A stretch of DNA of 64,000 bases from Ereboglobus sp. (GCA_029974595.1 JARKRC010000054.1:1-64000); one strand, 5' to 3'. Numbered from the stretch's first letter, positions 14,479 through 22,449 are shown. Translations and numbers: made by a program. Notes: generated by a model not told the origin, from the sequence alone.

Positions 14479-15897
14479 TTACGATTCCAAGGCCTGTTTG
14501 GCTTGGGCGGTGAGCGGGGTGGAGGCAAGGGCGGGCGGAGTGGCGGGAAGAGAGTCGGAGAGGCCGAGGTGTTGGGCGCGGGCGGCGAGCGTGAGGTAGG
14601 CGAAGGTTTCGCGTTCGGAATTGGCGGCGTGACCAGCGGCTTGCGCGAGGGCGTCGGAGGGAGCCGTGACGTGCGAGAGCGGGAGGGCGTCTTTTTCGGC
14701 GAGGAAAAAGCTGAGCGAAGCTCCCAAGGTCTGGCACCAGGCGTAGGCGCTGGCGGGCGGGGTGCAGGCAGGGGCGCCCGGCTCCTCCCGCCACTCCATG
14801 AAGAGGCAGATTTGTTCGTGGAGCTTGGCGATCTCGGCGTCGGCCGTGGCCGCCGTCCAAGCGGCGCGAAATTGTTTTCGTTCGCGGAGTTTTTTCACTT
14901 CCCAGAGACGCACGAGGATTTCAGTCGCGCCGTCTTTTTGCCGGAGGGCGCCGGTGAACACATAGTCGAGGCCGTCGGGGCTGCTCGCGACGAGCTGCTC
15001 GATGTTGCTCTTGCTCCACTCGACGGGAAAAATGGCGTAATGATCCTTGGCCATGAGCGCGAGGGCGGCGATGGGATTGTAATCCGGGCTGTAATAAAAC
15101 GTTTCCGAGAGCCAGAGGGGAAAGCCGCGGGTGAAGCGGGAGAGTTCGTCCTCGGGCTGTTTTGATTTTCCAATGGCCTCGGAGGGTTCGATGCCGAGGA
15201 TGGAGATTTGCCCGAAGGCGATGCGGCGGAAGCGCGGGTTTTGTTTCGGCGGAGGCACGACGCCGGGAACGTTTTCGATGCCGTAAGACCAGATGGGACG
15301 GGAAATACTGCAAAGGTTGATTGTCTTGGGCTCGGCGGCGGGTTTGCCGTCGGGGGCGCTGGCGCCGGGCGGGGAAAGCTCGCCGCGTCTTTCGGCTTCG
15401 ATGAGTTCGGCGAGGGCGTTGGAAAAACCGTAGAGGCGTTCTTCGAGTTCGGGGTGCTGGAGCGCGAAGAGGATGTCGAGAAGGTGCTGCGCGGCGGTGG
15501 TGTTGTGGGTGGCGAGATAGGCCTGGAGGAGGTTGATGCCGGTGGCCGGGCCGTGACGCTCGGCATCGTAACGGGGCGCGACGAGTTCGACGATTTGCGG
15601 AATGTGGCCGGCGGTGCCGAGGTCGGCGGAGATTGTCACGAGGACATCGGCGCGGTCGCCTGCGACGCGGAGGAGCTCCTCATAAATGGCCATGGCGGCG
15701 GGGAGGTCGCGGGCCTGCAGTTTGGCGTTGGCGGCGAGAAGCTGGGATTTGATTGTGAGGGCAGGCGTGCTTTCAACGGGAGCGGGGGCAGCGGGGACGG
15801 GGTGCACGGGCTCGGGAGCGACGGATTTGCCGACGGCGGCTGCGGGGGCGGGCGCGGTGTCGTTCTTCTTGGATATGAAGCGGTCAAAAAATCCCAT
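14479..15897 (-). CDS. Hypothetical protein with TPR-like helical N-terminal half
   Basis: The product has 472 residues from the ATG at 15895-15897 (MGFFDRFISKKND), with an Ala/Pro-rich linker up to about residue 50. Helical repeats reminiscent of TPRs follow (KLQARDLPAAMAIYEELLRV, then LLQAYLATHNTTAAQHLLDILFAL). The C-terminal half has an alpha/beta look (YVFTGALRQKDGATEILVRLWEV). No signal peptide or enzymatic motif is evident, so it is probably cytoplasmic. It lies downstream of the terminator that ends the TonB-coiled-coil operon and is a separate unit. I do not recognise a named family. Confidence 0.6.
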   Translation of the reverse strand: MGFFDRFISKKNDTAPAPAAAVGKSVAPEPVHPVPAAPAPVESTPALTIKSQLLAANAKLQARDLPAAMAIYEELLRVAGDRADVLVTISADLGTAGHIPQIVELVAPRYDAERHGPATGINLLQAYLATHNTTAAQHLLDILFALQHPELEERLYGFSNALAELIEAERRGELSPPGASAPDGKPAAEPKTINLCSISRPIWSYGIENVPGVVPPPKQNPRFRRIAFGQISILGIEPSEAIGKSKQPEDELSRFTRGFPLWLSETFYYSPDYNPIAALALMAKDHYAIFPVEWSKSNIEQLVASSPDGLDYVFTGALRQKDGATEILVRLWEVKKLRERKQFRAAWTAATADAEIAKLHEQICLFMEWREEPGAPACTPPASAYAWCQTLGASLSFFLAEKDALPLSHVTAPSDALAQAAGHAANSERETFAYLTLAARAQHLGLSDSLPATPPALASTPLTAQAKQALES

Positions 15898-15999
15898 GTG
15901 TCGAGAAAAGGAAAGGGTTGGGCAAAGTGCGAAGCTTTTTTGGCCCATGCCGATTTTTCAACATGAAAACGGCGCGGCAGTGTTCGTGATGAAAACGGG

Positions 16000-16035
16000 C
16001 GAAAAAGAAAAAGCCGCCGAGGAATTCGGCGGCTT
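16000..16035 (-). terminator. Rho-independent terminator of the exbB-coiled-coil operon
   Basis: On the minus strand a perfect stem, AAGCCGCCGA paired with TCGGCGGCTT around a 5-base loop (ATTCC), is followed directly by TTTCTTTTTC. It lies 26 bases after the stop of the last coiled-coil gene. Confidence 0.85.
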
Positions 16036-16060: not shown

Positions 16061-16594
16061 TTACTGGGCGGGCGCAGGCGTCGCGGGGAGCTTGGCGAGC
16101 GCGCTTTCGTTGGCACGGCGGGCGACCATGGCGGCGTAGCGCTGCACTTCCATCTCGGCGTTCTGGCGCTCGATATACGCGGCGGCAATCGATTTGCTCA
16201 TGTCAATTGACTGGCGGCTGAGCTTTTCCTTTTCAGCGCGGAGGGCGCCAAGTTCTTTTTCGAGGTCGGCAATCTGCTGCTTGTATTTGTTAAGGTCGGC
16301 AACGTAGGTGGCCTCTTCGTCACGGATTTTCTTGAGGCTGGCTTCGTAATCTTCCTTCTTTTTGAGCTCCTTGGCCGCGTCTTCCTGGCGGCGTTTTTCA
16401 TCTGCTATCCGGGCTCTTTCCTCGTTTTGCTTGCGGAGTTCCTCCTTTGCCTTGTCTTCGGCGGCCTTTTTCTCGGCGGCGGCGACTTCCTCCTGCCTCT
16501 GCTTCTCGGCAAGTTCCTTTTTGCTGCTCGCATAGAGGAAGATAAAGGCGGCCATTAGCACAATGGGGGCAATGATGTAGAGTAAGCGATTCAT
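16061..16594 (-). CDS. One-TM coiled-coil protein (third of three paralogues)
   Basis: The 177-residue protein has a single N-terminal membrane helix (LLYIIAPIVLMAAFIFLYA), then about 130 residues of charged heptad coiled coil rich in K, E, A, R and Q (for example ELAEKQRQEEVAAAEKKAAE), and a short Pro/Ala tail. The predicted topology is inner-membrane anchored with the coiled coil either periplasmic or cytoplasmic; the basic residues after the helix suggest the cytoplasm, but this is uncertain. It is the last of three adjacent genes with the same layout and little exact sequence identity. No enzyme motif is present. A structural role in bridging or regulating the TonB motor encoded upstream is inference from position. 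Confidence 0.7.
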   Translation of the reverse strand: MNRLLYIIAPIVLMAAFIFLYASSKKELAEKQRQEEVAAAEKKAAEDKAKEELRKQNEERARIADEKRRQEDAAKELKKKEDYEASLKKIRDEEATYVADLNKYKQQIADLEKELGALRAEKEKLSRQSIDMSKSIAAAYIERQNAEMEVQRYAAMVARRANESALAKLPATPAPAQ

Positions 16595-16614
16595 ATGATG
16601 TGTGGTTTTTAAAA

Positions 16615-17154
16615 TTAGCTTTTTTTGGCGGTTGCCGCGAGGCGCGCGGCTTCGGCTGCGGCGGCTCTTTCGGCGATTTCCAACTTGTCCAGTGCGTCCT
16701 GATAGATGGATCTCTTGGCCGCAGCCTCTTTTGCGGAAGCCTTGATGTGATCGATCTGGACTTGCTGCAATCTGACCCGCTCACGCGCACGCGCCAGCTG
16801 GTCCTTCGCCGCTGCGAGATCGTCCTGGGATTTGATTGATTGCTTATACATGCGCTCGCGTTCCTGAAGGGCTTTTTCGCGATCGCTGTTGGCGGTTTGC
16901 AGGGCCTCTTTTTGGGCTTCTTCCTCAAGCCGCTTTTGTTCGCGTTCCTTGGCGCGTTGCTCGGCTTGGATGACGGCTTCCTTGCGGGCGCGATCCTGCT
17001 TTGCCAGTTCCTCCTGCCTGCGTATTTCGGCTTCCTGCTCCAAGCGCGCCTTTTGTGCCGCGACGCTGATCTCAATTGCCTTTCTTTCGCTCAGGTAGAA
17101 ATAAAGAAAGATGAAAGCCAAAATCGCGGGAATAATGAAATAAAGTTTTTTCAT
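16615..17154 (-). CDS. One-TM coiled-coil protein (second of three paralogues)
   Basis: The 179-residue protein starts MKKLYFIIPAILAFIFLYFYLSER, a single membrane helix shared in pattern with the gene upstream (MKKLYFIVPIIGAIIFFFFY). A continuous charged coiled coil follows (EAEIRRQEELAKQDRARKE, AKEREQKRLEEEAQKE), ending in Ala-rich AERAAAAEAARLAATAKKS. The intergenic spaces on both sides are about 20 bases, which supports co-transcription. Its similarity to TolA-like stalks is one of composition only; no TonB or TolA C-terminal domain is present. Confidence 0.7.
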   Translation of the reverse strand: MKKLYFIIPAILAFIFLYFYLSERKAIEISVAAQKARLEQEAEIRRQEELAKQDRARKEAVIQAEQRAKEREQKRLEEEAQKEALQTANSDREKALQERERMYKQSIKSQDDLAAAKDQLARARERVRLQQVQIDHIKASAKEAAAKRSIYQDALDKLEIAERAAAAEAARLAATAKKS

Positions 17155-17175
17155 CGTTGGTATTTGATGTGTAGA

Positions 17176-17712
17176 TTAACCTCTCTTGGCAGCTCTTTCA
17201 GCCTCTCTCGCCATGGCGGCTGCCTTTTCGGCAGCGTCCATCTTATTCAGGGCGCGTTCGTAGTTCATTTTGTTTTCGACGACTTCCTTGACGGTTTTTT
17301 CGAGGTAAGCGGCCTGAATCGCCTGAAGTTCGAGTTGCTCCTTGACGCGGGCCACTTGCTCGTTGGCTACGATGCGGCTGTCGGTCAATTCAACAAGGCG
17401 CTTGTACTGGCGCTCACGTTCACGGTAGGCAAGGTCGCGGGCATCCTTGGCGGCTTCCGTTTCCTCGGCTTTGCGCGCCTCTTCTTTTTTCTTGGCTTCG
17501 ATTTCGGCAATGCGGCGATTGGCCTCGTCTAGAGCCATCTGGAATGCTTTTTTCCGGTTCTCAACGTCCATTCGGACGCGTTCGGCCTGCTCTTCAAGCT
17601 GCTTCTTTTTATGCGCTTGTTCCTGGAGCTTGATGTCGTCTTTGACAGCGGAATAGAAGAAGAAGAAAATGATGGCGCCGATAATCGGGACTATGAAGTA
17701 AAGTTTTTTCAT
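17176..17712 (-). CDS. One-TM coiled-coil protein (first of three paralogues)
   Basis: The 178-residue protein begins with a very hydrophobic helix (MKKLYFIVPIIGAIIFFFFY), followed by a long coiled coil (EQAHKKKQLEEQAERVRMDV, AEIEAKKKEEARKAEETEAA) and the tail AEKAAAMAREAERAAKRG. It lies 16 bases downstream of the TPR gene. The three adjacent copies point to local gene duplication and then divergence, perhaps to form a hetero-oligomeric bundle. Function unknown. Confidence 0.7.
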   Translation of the reverse strand: MKKLYFIVPIIGAIIFFFFYSAVKDDIKLQEQAHKKKQLEEQAERVRMDVENRKKAFQMALDEANRRIAEIEAKKKEEARKAEETEAAKDARDLAYRERERQYKRLVELTDSRIVANEQVARVKEQLELQAIQAAYLEKTVKEVVENKMNYERALNKMDAAEKAAAMAREAERAAKRG

Positions 17713-17728
17713 GGTCTGAATATAATGG

Positions 17729-19207
17729 TTACTTTGAAGGTTGCGCGGGAGCGGCCTGCGTGGTGGCAGGCTGCTCCGGTTTGCCTTTGTCCGCTTGTTT
17801 TTCGGCCGGCTGGTCTTTCTTCAGATTGCGATCTCGCATGGCAATGGCCTCGGTGATGGCTTGTTTCACGTCCTTGGCATTCTGGCTCTTGGGATCGATT
17901 TCCAAGGATTGGATGACCGAGGCAAGGGCTTCGTCCAGTTCCTTGAGTTCGAAATGCAGGTAGCCGATGAAGAAGAGAAGGGATGCCTTTCTGTTTTCGG
18001 CAACGCCTTTGTCGCGGGCGATCTTCATGTAATCAAGCGCCTTGCGATATTGCTCGTTACCATAGTACAGATAGCCGATCTGCATGTCTATATCGCCCTT
18101 GTCCGGAAACCTCTTGGATGCTTCGATCAGGGTGTCGATGGCTTTCTGGGTTTGGTTGAGCTGCAAATAGCAAGAGGAGAGGAGTTCCCAGTTTCTCTGG
18201 TCGGCTTCCATTTTTCCGGTGCGGAGCCCGTCTTCAAGAACATCAACGGATCCTTCATATTGCCCGGAGTTAAAATAGCAGGCAAACAAACGCTGGTAAT
18301 CCTGCGGGCCGGTCATGAAACCGTTCTTCTGGGCGCGCTCGATGGTGTAGACAGCCTTGGCATAAGCGTCATTGCGCAAGAACGAGCCTTCAGGCATGGT
18401 GTCCGCAGCGGTCAGATAAGTGGAAAGGAGCATCGTCCAGTAATTGGAGCTCTTGGGATTCGCCGCCACCATGAGTTCGAGATATTTGGATGCGGTTTCC
18501 TGATCATTGGAGGCTTGGGAAATGGCAACCAAGAGTTGATAGATTTGATCGCGAGGCTTGAGAATGGTCGTGAGCGCGTGTTCGCATTCAATCGCGGCTT
18601 CTTTCAGGAGCTTTTTGTCAGGTTCCTTGGCCGCGCCGCTGCCAGTGGCTTGCTGATAAAGAATGCTGGCGGCAAAGTAATAGGCATCGAAGGTGGGTTT
18701 GGGGGTTTCCTTCAGCCAGTCGCGGACTGTCGAAAGCGCTTTTGCGAACTTCAGTTTCTGGAGTTCCGTATTCTTTTCCAAACTGGCGTCTTGCACATAA
18801 AGCTGGGCGAGCATCCAGAGAATTCCCAATTCCTGCGTCTTGTCAAAGAAACCGTAGGCCTTGGAAAGGCGGTATACCGTCTCCAAAACCGGAAGGCTTG
18901 CGGCATAATCCTGCTTACCGATGTAGGCCTGCGCCTTCATCTGCGAGAGGTATGCGGTGTCGTAGCTCTCCGGTTTGACTTGCGCAAGGAGCGCATTGAT
19001 ATCTTGGATCGCGCCGTCGTAATCGGGGGGCTGGCCCGGCTGGCCTGTGAGTTTAATGCCAATGGCTTGGAGGCTTTCGGCAACCTTGTCGCTGAATTCT
19101 TTTTTGGGCGCTTCCTGAGCCGCGAGGGAAACAGGAATGACAATTGCCACCAAAAGAGCGCTGATTTGGGCCAGAGAGGAAAAAAGTGTGCGTCTGATAA
19201 GGGACAT
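17729..19207 (-). CDS. Exported TPR protein of the TonB operon
   Basis: The 492-residue protein has a signal peptide (ISALLVAIVIPVSLAAQ) and many tetratricopeptide-like helix pairs over about residues 60-440. Examples are LSQMKAQAYIGKQDYAASLPVLETVY, LLVAISQASNDQETASKYLELMV, LFACYFNSGQYEGSVDVLEDGL and LLFFIGYLHFELKELDEALA. The C-terminus is Lys/Gln/Ala-rich. It should reside in the periplasm as a scaffold. TPR proteins accompany some TonB systems of Gram-negative bacteria, where they help couple the motor to receptors; an equivalent role here is inferred from its position between tonB and the coiled-coil genes. Confidence 0.75.
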   Translation of the reverse strand: MSLIRRTLFSSLAQISALLVAIVIPVSLAAQEAPKKEFSDKVAESLQAIGIKLTGQPGQPPDYDGAIQDINALLAQVKPESYDTAYLSQMKAQAYIGKQDYAASLPVLETVYRLSKAYGFFDKTQELGILWMLAQLYVQDASLEKNTELQKLKFAKALSTVRDWLKETPKPTFDAYYFAASILYQQATGSGAAKEPDKKLLKEAAIECEHALTTILKPRDQIYQLLVAISQASNDQETASKYLELMVAANPKSSNYWTMLLSTYLTAADTMPEGSFLRNDAYAKAVYTIERAQKNGFMTGPQDYQRLFACYFNSGQYEGSVDVLEDGLRTGKMEADQRNWELLSSCYLQLNQTQKAIDTLIEASKRFPDKGDIDMQIGYLYYGNEQYRKALDYMKIARDKGVAENRKASLLFFIGYLHFELKELDEALASVIQSLEIDPKSQNAKDVKQAITEAIAMRDRNLKKDQPAEKQADKGKPEQPATTQAAPAQPSK

Positions 19208-19223
19208 GGGCGGGCGAGGATTA

Positions 19224-19907
19224 TTATTCGTCGTTCAGATTGAAAGCGATGGGGATTTGCATGCGGGTGGTGACCGCCTTGCCGCCTTTTCTACCGGCGT
19301 GGAATTTCCATTTCTGAACAGCTGCGATTGCGGGAGATTCAAACTCGCGGTGGGATGATTTGACGACGGTAACGTCGTGGACATCGCCCCGGGAATCGAC
19401 GAGGAACTGCAACGTGACTTCGCCGCTGATACCCTGGCGCTTCATCTCGTGGGGATACTGCGGCGCTTCACGCATGCCGCGGGCTCTTGGTTGTTGATCG
19501 AGATCCCTGATATCAAAAATCTGGCCCATGTTGCTCCTGACACCGCCGCCGGGAGGTCCTTTCGGAATGGTCATCGTGCCACCGTCGGGACGTCCGAGCG
19601 AGGGAGGAGGCGGAGGAGCCATTGTTTGCGTGAAAGAGTCAACGGTGACGTTGCCGGGAATATCCATGAGACTGGGTGGCGCGATGGTCGCCACGTCAAC
19701 GGATTGTTCTTCAGCTGCTTCCGTGGGATCGGGTGGCACAGGAGGGATTTCCGGCGCCTGCCAGATTTCAACATCCACAGCAGAGGCCTGCTGGACGGCT
19801 TTCTTTGTAGGGGGGCCGAAAAGCCAGCCATAGGCTTTTTCGCCATAGCCCAACCCGCCATGGATGCCGATGGAAAGTATCAAGCCTATAATCAAATCGC
19901 GTCTCAT
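19224..19907 (-). CDS. tonB: TonB-family energy transducer
   Basis: The 227-residue protein has an N-terminal membrane anchor (IIGLILSIGIHGGLGYGEKAYG) containing the His of the SxxxH-type TonB helix, and a Pro-rich and acidic linker (APEIPPVPPDPTEAAEEQ, PPPPPSLGRP). The C-terminal TonB domain is marked by PQYPHEMKRQGISGEVTLQF, then DSRGDVHDVTVVKSSHREFE and AVQKWKFHAGRKGGKAV. It carries proton-motive energy from ExbB/ExbD to outer-membrane receptors. It lies 19 bases downstream of the second exbD. Confidence 0.92.
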   Translation of the reverse strand: MRRDLIIGLILSIGIHGGLGYGEKAYGWLFGPPTKKAVQQASAVDVEIWQAPEIPPVPPDPTEAAEEQSVDVATIAPPSLMDIPGNVTVDSFTQTMAPPPPPSLGRPDGGTMTIPKGPPGGGVRSNMGQIFDIRDLDQQPRARGMREAPQYPHEMKRQGISGEVTLQFLVDSRGDVHDVTVVKSSHREFESPAIAAVQKWKFHAGRKGGKAVTTRMQIPIAFNLNDE

Positions 19908-19926
19908 GTTTTATGCGTGGTGGTTG

Positions 19927-20373
19927 TTATTTGCCAGAGGCACGGTAATTGGTTTCGAAGGAGATTTCAGTGACTCCTGCGGCTTTGGTGAGATCGAGCG
20001 CCCTGATTAGAGTGCCATATTTGGCGCGATCATCGCCACTGATGAGGACACGAGGAGTCTCACCAGAGGCATTTGTGGTCTCTTTATAGTGAAGCACACG
20101 CGCGTAAACGTCATTTATGTCAGAAGGCTCCCGATTAATATAAACAGTCGATCCATCTGAAACTTGAAGGATGAGAGGTTCAGAGGTTTTTGGCCCCGGT
20201 TCTCCGGACACCGGCAGCTTGGTCTCCATGGACTGAATTCTGTTCAGCGAAAGGCTAAACAGCACGAAGGTGGCGAGCAGAAAGAAGATAACGTCAATGA
20301 GAGGAATGATCTCAATGCGCGCCTTCTTTTTGACATCGGTGTCAAAGGGTGTGCCTGCGGATTTATCAGCCAT
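19927..20373 (-). CDS. exbD: ExbD/TolR biopolymer transport protein (second copy)
   Basis: The 148-residue protein shows the ExbD layout: a short cytoplasmic start, the membrane helix IEIIPLIDVIFFLLATFVLFSLSLN carrying the essential Asp, and a periplasmic domain ending in ALDLTKAAGVTEISFETNYRA. The helix and the sequence before it (KKARIEIIPLIDV) are nearly identical to those of the gene directly upstream, while the periplasmic parts have diverged strongly. That fits a duplication followed by specialisation. The two probably form a heteromeric ExbD pair in one motor. Confidence 0.92.
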   Translation of the reverse strand: MADKSAGTPFDTDVKKKARIEIIPLIDVIFFLLATFVLFSLSLNRIQSMETKLPVSGEPGPKTSEPLILQVSDGSTVYINREPSDINDVYARVLHYKETTNASGETPRVLISGDDRAKYGTLIRALDLTKAAGVTEISFETNYRASGK

Positions 20374-20399
20374 GGGTATTGTTTGTTAAAGTGGTTATA

Positions 20400-20849
20400 T
20401 TACCGGCCCTGGCGCTCATGCTCAGGGGTGATGCGCGTCTCGATCATGATTTTCTGGATGCCGGTGCGCTTGATCTGGTCGATGACGTAGCGGGCGGAGG
20501 AGTAGTTGGCGTTTTCGTCGCCGTTGATGAGGATGCGGGCGTTTTCAGGGCCGACCTGCAGGGAGTAGTTGTGGATGCGGTTGACGAATTCCTCGAGGGA
20601 GATCGGATCCTTTTCCCAGCCGATTTCGTTGTTGTCGGTGATGGAAATGGTGACCGTGTTCGTGGGGTCGCGAGGCACGCTGTTTTCGACCTTGGGCAGG
20701 AGCACGCTCAAACCGTTGGACTTGTTCAGCGAAAGGGTGAACAGGATGAAGGTGGCGAGCAGAAAGAAGATAACGTCAATGAGAGGAATGATCTCAATGC
20801 GCGCTTTTTTTGGACCGTCGCCTGAATGTGAGCCGCCGCCGCCTGCCAT
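20400..20849 (-). CDS. exbD: ExbD/TolR biopolymer transport protein (first copy)
   Basis: The 149-residue protein has the helix KKARIEIIPLIDVIFFLLATF with the conserved Asp for proton translocation, and the periplasmic domain VGPENARILINGDENANYSS up to RTGIQKIMIETRITPE. It is separated from exbB by 97 bases that contain a stem-loop (20893-20921), and from the second exbD by 26 bases. Two-exbD systems are known in several Gram-negative groups. Confidence 0.92.
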   Translation of the reverse strand: MAGGGGSHSGDGPKKARIEIIPLIDVIFFLLATFILFTLSLNKSNGLSVLLPKVENSVPRDPTNTVTISITDNNEIGWEKDPISLEEFVNRIHNYSLQVGPENARILINGDENANYSSARYVIDQIKRTGIQKIMIETRITPEHERQGR

Positions 20850-20892
20850 AGTGGTATAAAAGTTCGATGTTACTGGTTGTTATGTTTTTTCA

Positions 20893-20921
20893 AAGCCGCC
20901 AAGCGCGGGGCCGGGCGGCTT
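20893..20921 (-). promoter_or_regulatory. Intercistronic stem-loop between exbB and exbD
   Basis: AAGCCGCC at 20893-20900 pairs perfectly with GGCGGCTT at 20914-20921. On the transcribed strand it is followed by TGAAAAAAC, not a T run, so it is not a standard terminator. An RNA processing or stabilising hairpin that sets a higher exbB than exbD level is plausible. Confidence 0.45.
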
Positions 20922-20946
20922 CAAACGAAATCTTACGCCTGAATCA

Positions 20947-21615
20947 TCAAGCGTGAACCTTGTCCGTCTTATAGTAAATGGTCAGGAAGTTCGAAGCGTC
21001 GGCCATGTCGTGCTTGATCTGCTCGATGCTCGAATTGAGAACATTGTAGGGGACGAGGCCCATGATGGCGATGGCCAGACCGCACATGGTGGCGATGAGC
21101 GCCTCGGCCACGCCGCCGGTGATCTTGCTGGAGGCCTGGCTGATGTCGCCCTGGCCGAGGGCGCCGAAGGTTTCCATCATGCCCGTGATCGTGCCGAGAA
21201 GGCCGAGGTAGGGGGCCGCCGTGATGACGGTGTCGAGAACCGCGCCGCCTTGCTGATACTTCTTGAGCTGGTCGTTGGCCTCGCGGGTGAAGGCGCTGAA
21301 CATCGCGTGAGGAGGAACAGTGAGGGCCGCCGTGATGGCCTTGGCAATGGGATCCTTGGCCTTGGCGCCGAGCTGCTTGGCCGCCTCATAATCACCGTCC
21401 TGAATCTTCTTATACATGGTCTCGACGACGTGCGGCTGGCGGCTGAGCGCCGAGCGCACGAGGAAGATCACGCGCTCGATGGCGACGGTGACGCCGACAA
21501 ACGAGGTTATGAGGATGGGCCACATGATGGGACCGCCATGGATGAAGAGCTCCATGGGCCCGAGATTCATGAGCTTGAAGAACGCTAGCGGTGAACTGAG
21601 GACTGCAGTGATCAT
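20947..21615 (-). CDS. exbB: ExbB/TolQ/MotA proton channel protein
   Basis: The 222-residue protein has three membrane segments: HGGPIMWPILITSFVGVTVAIERVIFL near the start, and two around VLDTVITAAPYLGLLGTITGMMETFGAL and ITGGVAEALIATMCGLAIAIMGLVPYN. The last two carry the family Thr and small-residue patterns. It forms the pentameric proton channel of the TonB motor with ExbD. It is the first gene of the operon exbB-exbD-exbD-tonB-TPR-three coiled-coil genes. Starts at MNLGPMELF or MELFIHGGP, 15 or 20 residues in, are equally possible. Confidence 0.93.
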   Translation of the reverse strand: MITAVLSSPLAFFKLMNLGPMELFIHGGPIMWPILITSFVGVTVAIERVIFLVRSALSRQPHVVETMYKKIQDGDYEAAKQLGAKAKDPIAKAITAALTVPPHAMFSAFTREANDQLKKYQQGGAVLDTVITAAPYLGLLGTITGMMETFGALGQGDISQASSKITGGVAEALIATMCGLAIAIMGLVPYNVLNSSIEQIKHDMADASNFLTIYYKTDKVHA

Positions 21616-21975: not shown

Positions 21976-22049
21976 TGGCTGCCCGACTAGGACTCGAACC
22001 TAGACAAGCAGAGTCAGAATCTGCTGTGCTACCATTACACCATCGGGCA
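21976..22049 (-). tRNA. tRNA-Gln (CTG)
   Basis: The 74-base cloverleaf includes an encoded CCA. The acceptor stem is TGCCCGA/TCGGGCA, the anticodon stem GCAGA/TCTGC with loop TTCTGAC (anticodon CTG), and the T arm CTAGG TTCGAGT CCTAG. Confidence 0.93.
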
Positions 22050-22143
22050 GTTGATCCGCCTGGAAAATCGAGGAGGAAAAACATGAAGCGGTCCAAGGCA
22101 ACGCATCTGCAAGAGCGGCGGTTTTGCCGCCGTGTTTTCAAAC

Positions 22144-22218
22144 TGGAGCCGACGATGGGATTCGAACCCGCAACCGCCTGTTTACAAAACAGGTGCTCTA
22201 CCGTTGAGCTACGTCGGC
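22144..22218 (-). tRNA. tRNA-Thr (TGT)
   Basis: The 75-base cloverleaf includes an encoded CCA. The acceptor stem is GCCGACG/CGTCGGC, the anticodon stem CCTGT/ACAGG with loop TTTGTAA (anticodon TGT), and the T loop TTCGAAT. Confidence 0.93.
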
Positions 22219-22374
22219 ACGAAAAAAATGTGGTTCGTGAGAAACCATTGTCCGGCTTCTGCGTCACTTGTAACCTGCTGGAGTGGGAAAGAACGAGGCA
22301 TTCGTCCGGATGACAGTGCGCTTGGCGCATTGATGCGCCCGTGCGGGTGTTATTCAGACATGCAAAAAAGAACT

Positions 22375-22449
<75 letters not shown>

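Follow-up and report, generated by a model that had tools for sequence, protein, structure and literature searches.

Introduction

TonB motors run on protons and power nutrient uptake through the outer membrane, and some of these systems depend on helper proteins. In Vibrio vulnificus, for example, the TonB2 operon reads ttpB2-ttpC2-exbB2-exbD2-tonB2-ttpD2, and both TtpB2 (255 aa, with a leucine zipper) and TtpD2 (425 aa, with tetratricopeptide repeats, TPR) are essential (PMC6957404). Here we describe a TonB unit of another make-up, found in a 64,000-nt stretch of the genome of Ereboglobus sp. (GCA_029974595.1, JARKRC010000054.1:1-64000; hereafter "the window"). Its eight genes, all on the minus strand from 21615 to 16061, run exbB-exbD-exbD-tonB, continue with a gene for an exported TPR protein and end in three genes for similar coiled-coil proteins with one transmembrane (TM) helix each, CC1, CC2 and CC3, of which the first two are of one type (CCA) and the last of another (CCB). 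A first-pass annotation of the window had proposed this arrangement and pictured it as a motor with added scaffold or stalk parts, possibly a specialised envelope machine; Pfam and NCBIfam bear out the motor, the TonB_C domain and the TPR repeats. On balance we judge it probable, if not comfortably so, that the unit is the general TonB energising complex of the Opitutaceae in a new architecture.

Results

Conservation of the block across the Opitutaceae

Relatives were searched for with CC1 and their loci read, after which one genome per species was scanned. Wherever a contig was long enough, the loci of relatives showed the order exbB-exbD-exbD-tonB-TPR-CCA-CCB. The scan returned 119 encoding stretches. 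Nearly all of the 80 kept carry the label Opitutaceae, Opitutia or Verrucomicrobia; an Acidobacteria label on two small contigs is probably due to mis-binning. The exact order is present in 99 of 126 locus records (duplicates included). The others are records that reach a contig end or contain split or overlapping open reading frames (ORFs), those from the window's genus with its doubled CCA, and one TtpC-type operon (L113). In all, 108 distinct loci carry the block, part of them cut by contig ends, so the arrangement is more than chance. The first-pass annotation had suggested a survey of other Verrucomicrobiota and named a lack of conserved gene order as evidence against its proposal; what the survey found is an order held throughout the family. 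IMCC26134, an isolate of the Opitutaceae with a complete genome, has the unit as well. Beyond the Opitutaceae, the block occurs in two other Opitutales genomes, G055 and G484 (diverged). It was through the ExbB or TPR gene that divergent copies were recognised in G004, G026, G031, G032 and G484, and likewise those in G013 and G027, which are truncated by the end of a contig.

Three coiled-coil genes, as first described, are a peculiarity of Ereboglobus, to which the doubling of CCA is limited; elsewhere the unit has two. An apparent CCA duplication in L042 proved to be an overlapping ORF scoring 40 bits, not a gene. Broad searches of the phylum gave no convincing CC genes outside the block; weak CC-profile matches in G539, G044 and G164:C24 are unrelated coils with no motor genes adjoining. 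A scan of viral contigs gave no relatives.

Motor residues and the role of the unit's TonB

ExbB, ExbD and TonB_C domains all occur in the one unit, and the key motor residues are retained. In ExbB, T129, T132, T142, T149 and E171 are present in 95/95 loci; the TM Asp is found in 97/97 loci for the first ExbD and in 97/98 for the second (one gap); and the TonB TM carries Ser in 87/99 and His in 91/99 loci, with SHLS-type spacing. Furthermore, the stretch VDVEIWQ of the window's TonB matches the ExbD-binding D-box pattern of TonB (PMC10907165), although its first positions vary in relatives, where the pattern is looser. The Pro52 that follows is present in 99/99 loci.

Receptor plug domains are numerous in unit-bearing genomes, with at least 67 each in G033 and G020. 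The TonB_C domains of these two genomes belong to the unit's TonB and to a TolA-like protein adjoining a motor gene, to which G020 adds a 134-aa ORF, so that apart from the TolA-like protein the unit's TonB appears to be the sole full-length TonB there; G028 has one further TonB. Some of these genomes are drafts, and G033 is 87% complete. Since the unit's TonB is nearly the sole TonB amid so many receptors, gene content makes it most likely the general energiser in such genomes, which speaks against the specialised machine first envisaged. Rows of three or four TonB_C domains, either in one long ORF or in tandem small ORFs, were also seen (G000:C58:55180-56100, G000:C26:68701-70163, G000:C25:210317-211252 and G032:C26:24671-26252), and the genomes with such rows hold about 11-23 TonB_C matches.

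Genomic setting points the same way, with the main copy often sitting among core genes and extra copies beside receptors. Where flanks were long enough, the unit is often divergent to the genes for ribosomal protein L20 (38 loci) and pheS (34 loci), and in subsets of loci it precedes pyrE, prs or OmpH-type genes. Two copies are present in the window's genome, in G006 and in G036, and four in G007. In the window's genome, the second copy (L032, 4394-17308) overlaps by 4 nt the gene that comes after it, which encodes a binding protein of the polar amino-acid type; beyond that gene lie an OsmC-domain gene, genes for ABC permease and ATPase components, and a TonB-dependent receptor. Two TonB-dependent receptors lie directly downstream of the unit on the same strand in L052; an amidase and a receptor lie near the extra copy in L053, and a CirA-like receptor and a periplasmic binding protein near that in L056. 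The proximity of extra copies to uptake genes supports an uptake role. Copy number itself is not tied to receptor number, as G007 has four copies (L042, L054, L055 and L056) but only about 18 plug domains.

A TtpD-like TPR protein without TtpB or TtpC

The exported TPR protein had been taken as an added part of the motor. The gene is real, though its kind is known: the window protein is homologous to the TPR proteins that end local TtpC-type operons (hhalign 99.9%, E 1.6e-31). Such operons, with the order DUF3450-TtpC-ExbB-ExbD-TonB-TPR, occur in other Opitutales and in some Opitutaceae (DUF3450 at 1.5e-29 in L208), and neither DUF3450 (TtpB) nor TtpC is present in the operon of the window. 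Among 37 genomes of the family, 24 have the CC-type core only, 7 full-length TtpC only, 5 both and 1 neither. This distribution (Fisher p 5e-4; p 1e-3 when each genus is represented by a single genome; shared ancestry is ignored in the test) suggests that the two systems are largely, not strictly, alternatives. The ExbBs of CC-type units form a single clade (support 100/99) apart from those of TtpC-type operons, in a tree for which the tree tool issued a long-branch warning. Separately, G034 and G035 contain TtpC-ExbD-ExbD-TPR blocks (L212:4273-8097 and L213:4674-8448) in which the TonB and small-ExbB profiles matched nothing.

Two families of predicted helical rods of nearly fixed length

The description of the coiled-coil proteins as three paralogues is borne out most directly for CC1 and CC2, which are 35% identical (E 3e-20). 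The relationship of CC3 to these two shows at the TM (37.5% over 24 aa, E 4e-4) and in profile comparison (99.4%). As the first-pass annotation had found no family to name, so neither CCA nor CCB matches any family above cut-off in Pfam or NCBIfam. Searches of the Protein Data Bank (PDB), made with CCB alone, gave generic coils only (keratin, bZIP), Foldseek with the CCB model against the PDB returned nothing, and we found no paper on these proteins.

The two families share an N-terminal TM signature, Tyr-x3-Pro-x6-Phe-x3-Tyr, and this TM is more conserved than most of the coil. A charged residue or His within TM residues 4-19 occurs in only 1/92 and 1/94 sequences. Outside the TM, the most conserved patch lies near the far end of CCB. 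From alignments of 92 and 94 sequences, AlphaFold2 (AF2) predicts one unbroken helix in CCB (residues 4-163, mean pLDDT 92) and in CCA (residues 4-177, mean pLDDT 93), a length range of 160-174 residues.

The length of these rods is nearly invariant. CCB spans 135 residues from F17 to Q151 in 86/90 sequences (73/77 in an alignment-free count), and CCA 132 residues from F16 to N147 in 83/86; in the same loci, the modal core-length fraction is 0.54 for ExbB, 0.60 and 0.33 for the two ExbDs, 0.26 for TonB and 0.15 for the TPR protein (60 loci). Pro makes up less than 0.1% of the rod core. The distal half of CCA shows a clear heptad period of ~3.5; for CCB the signal is borderline. These features agree with rods whose length and register are important. 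The part past the membrane, about 142 residues, would measure about 21 nm at a rise of 0.15 nm per residue, which is near the known width of the E. coli periplasm, and rods of this predicted length would be enough to span the periplasm. The near-invariant length favours the scaffold or stalk parts first suggested, a role that we infer.

Organisation of the unit in the window

The features of the unit are listed in Table 1. The genes had been said to follow one another without a gap, which is nearly so from exbD1 onward (26, 19, 16, 16, 21 and 20 nt by the coordinates) and not so between exbB and exbD1, where 97 nt intervene; the two ExbDs are 36% identical. The strong single terminator of the first-pass annotation is confirmed: directly 3' of CC3 lies a terminator-like site, and the region has no other on the minus strand. 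No promoter-like site within the unit rises above chance level; independent promoters for the coiled-coil genes, together with a lack of conserved order, had been named as evidence against the first proposal. A Fur box is absent 5' of exbB, the best match (11/19) not surpassing those in shuffled sequence.

The minus strand also carries tRNA genes for Lys, Thr and Gln shortly before exbB (window 21976-22449). Immediately past the terminator lies a gene for a 489-aa protein with weak TPR similarity (window 14479-15948, minus strand), to which NCBIfam assigns no family; it adjoins the unit in the window's genome and in G002 (L033) only, and is missing from that place in G001 and G003.

Table 1. 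Features of the TonB unit and their positions in the window.
Feature	Position	Strand	Description
exbB	20947..21615	-	222 aa; proton-channel ring subunit; MotA_ExbB 4e-27 (Pfam)
exbD1	20400..20849	-	149 aa; TM Asp25 retained; ExbD 6e-22 (Pfam)
exbD2	19927..20373	-	148 aa; TM Asp27 retained; ExbD 3e-22 (Pfam)
tonB	19224..19907	-	227 aa; TonB_C 1e-23 (Pfam); TIGR01352 above cut-off
TonB TM Ser12...His16	19860..19874	-	SHLS-type motor contact; conserved across loci
TonB D-box-like VDVEIWQ	19758..19778	-	residues 44-50, then invariant Pro52; pattern of PMC10907165
Exported TPR protein, TtpD-like	17729..19207	-	492 aa; TPR models 8e-12 (Pfam)
CCA1 (CC1)	17176..17712	-	178 aa; one TM and a predicted single periplasmic helix (alignments; AF2)
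CCA2 (CC2)	16615..17154	-	179 aa; CCA duplicate, restricted to the window's genus
CCB (CC3)	16061..16594	-	177 aa; one TM and a predicted single periplasmic helix (alignment; AF2)
CCB TM signature Y6-x3-P10-x6-F17-x3-Y21	16532..16579	-	shared with CCA; top conserved N-terminal columns in both families
CCB distal conserved patch	16139..16186	-	residues 137-152; consensus ELAxIxRRNAELEIQR; highest information content outside TM
Rho-independent terminator closing the unit	16011..16035	-	10-pair stem and T-rich tail

Discussion

Here we have traced the unit through its family and can propose how its parts may work together. By sequence, ExbB, the two ExbD paralogues and TonB make up a standard proton-driven motor with its transducer, to which the unit adds the TtpD-like exported TPR protein and two helical rods anchored in the inner membrane. 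The TM helices of the rods may pack on the ExbB ring via their shared Tyr/Pro/Phe/Tyr face, CCA and CCB may pair into a coiled-coil strut that extends about 21 nm into the periplasm, and the conserved distal end of CCB, lying close to the outer membrane or the cell wall, could dock the TPR protein or some other partner. Under this scheme, the rods would act as a passive stator or guide rather than a driven shaft, holding the spacing between motor and receptor while TonB bears the force, and they would do the job that falls to the DUF3450 protein and the TtpC coiled-coil domain in TonB2-type systems. Gene order, its conservation, the motor residues, the TPR homology and the constancy of rod length are read from the sequences themselves; that rods and motor form a single complex is what we infer from them. 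The more specific proposal that CCA and CCB make a paired, length-fixed strut setting the distance from the motor to the outer membrane or cell wall is offered tentatively, as a possibility somewhat short of probable.

Several points weigh against this scheme. The TM packing, the CCA-CCB pairing and the TPR docking are guesses; a single helix is what AF2 tends to return for any coil, and the pTM here is only about 0.5; and the heptad signal beats the control clearly in CCA only. The unit is missing from some Opitutaceae genomes, five genomes hold both CC-type and TtpC-type systems, and the apparent alternation of the two rests on a comparison that takes no account of common descent.

Much of the same evidence bears on other readings of the rods. 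It is conceivable that CCA and CCB are extra force transducers, rotated or pulled by the motor like TolA or TonB and working against the outer membrane or the cell wall, as E. coli TolA likewise has one TM and a long periplasmic helix and other motor-driven transducers lie beside TolQR-like genes and a TPR gene in PVC bacteria (PMC12204202). We consider this unlikely, since the CC TM has neither the SHLS His nor a pore Asp, the AF2 models show no folded C-terminal domain to grip a partner, which together argue against a driven shaft, and the unit already has its TonB. An improbable reading, too, is that the rods stand outside the motor, as periplasmic chaperones, regulators or cell-wall spacers that happen to share its transcript. 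A coil by itself names no partner, and the PDB matches of the CCB profile are to generic coils; however, the linkage to the motor genes is strict in 108 loci, including second copies in other settings, the broad searches of the phylum gave no stray CC gene, and conservation is higher in the TM than in most of the coil.

The remaining readings would assign the whole unit to a described system. The homologous TPR protein, together with the presence of two coiled-coil proteins beside the motor in both cases, could mean that CCA and CCB are the TtpB and TtpC, diverged past recognition, of a TtpC-type (Vibrio TonB2) system. We think this quite improbable: the profiles of CC proteins and TtpC show no similarity (2-4%), by which homology of the CC proteins to TtpC was rejected, the order of TM and coil is opposite, the gene position differs and the ExbB clade is separate. 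Very improbable, finally, is a machine of the Tol-Pal kind that serves division or the integrity of the outer membrane and in which the TPR protein takes the part of CpoB. A TPR gene is indeed present, and ExbB and ExbD score somewhat better on the TolQ/TolR than on the ExbB/ExbD NCBIfam models, although far below all cut-offs. Against it, the C-terminal domain of TonB scores above the cut-off for the TonB subfamily, the operon genes include no TolA, TolB or Pal, a separate TolQ/TolR-like pair exists at G000:C8, and receptors stand beside second copies.

A general TonB energiser built with rods would combine an ordinary function with a new, family-wide architecture that includes two undescribed protein families, and a whole bacterial family appears to use a helper pair different from, and simpler than, that of Vibrio. 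If the scheme holds, the strut would join bare TonB and TtpB/TtpC as a third means of supporting force transfer across the periplasm, and the spacing between motor and receptor would become testable through rod length, by lengthening or shortening one helix.

Comparison with described systems

Set beside the vWA motor-driven transducers of PVC bacteria (PMC12204202), the unit likewise groups a TolQ-like gene, a TolR-like pair and a TPR gene; it differs in having no vWA domain and a rod TM without the motor-coupling His or Asp. With Tol-Pal (TolQRA, CpoB) it shares a related motor and a TPR partner, and the long helical periplasmic part of E. coli TolA recalls the rods; its transducer domain, however, is of the TonB type, TolB and Pal are absent and the rods have no C-terminal domain. 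Vibrio TonB2 has the same ExbB-ExbD-TonB core, coiled-coil partners and a TPR gene after tonB, the window's TPR gene occupying the position of V. vulnificus ttpD2 (PMC6957404). In contrast to that system, the unit lacks DUF3450 (TtpB) and the long TtpC (a long ExbB with an N-terminal coil), and has two ExbDs throughout, two short one-TM rods at its 3' end and an ExbB from a separate clade. With E. coli Ton, the unit has in common the ExbB Thr and Glu residues, the ExbD TM Asp, the SHLS-type Ser and His of TonB, a D-box-like stretch and the TonB_C domain, and to these it adds a second ExbD paralogue, a TPR protein and two rod proteins.

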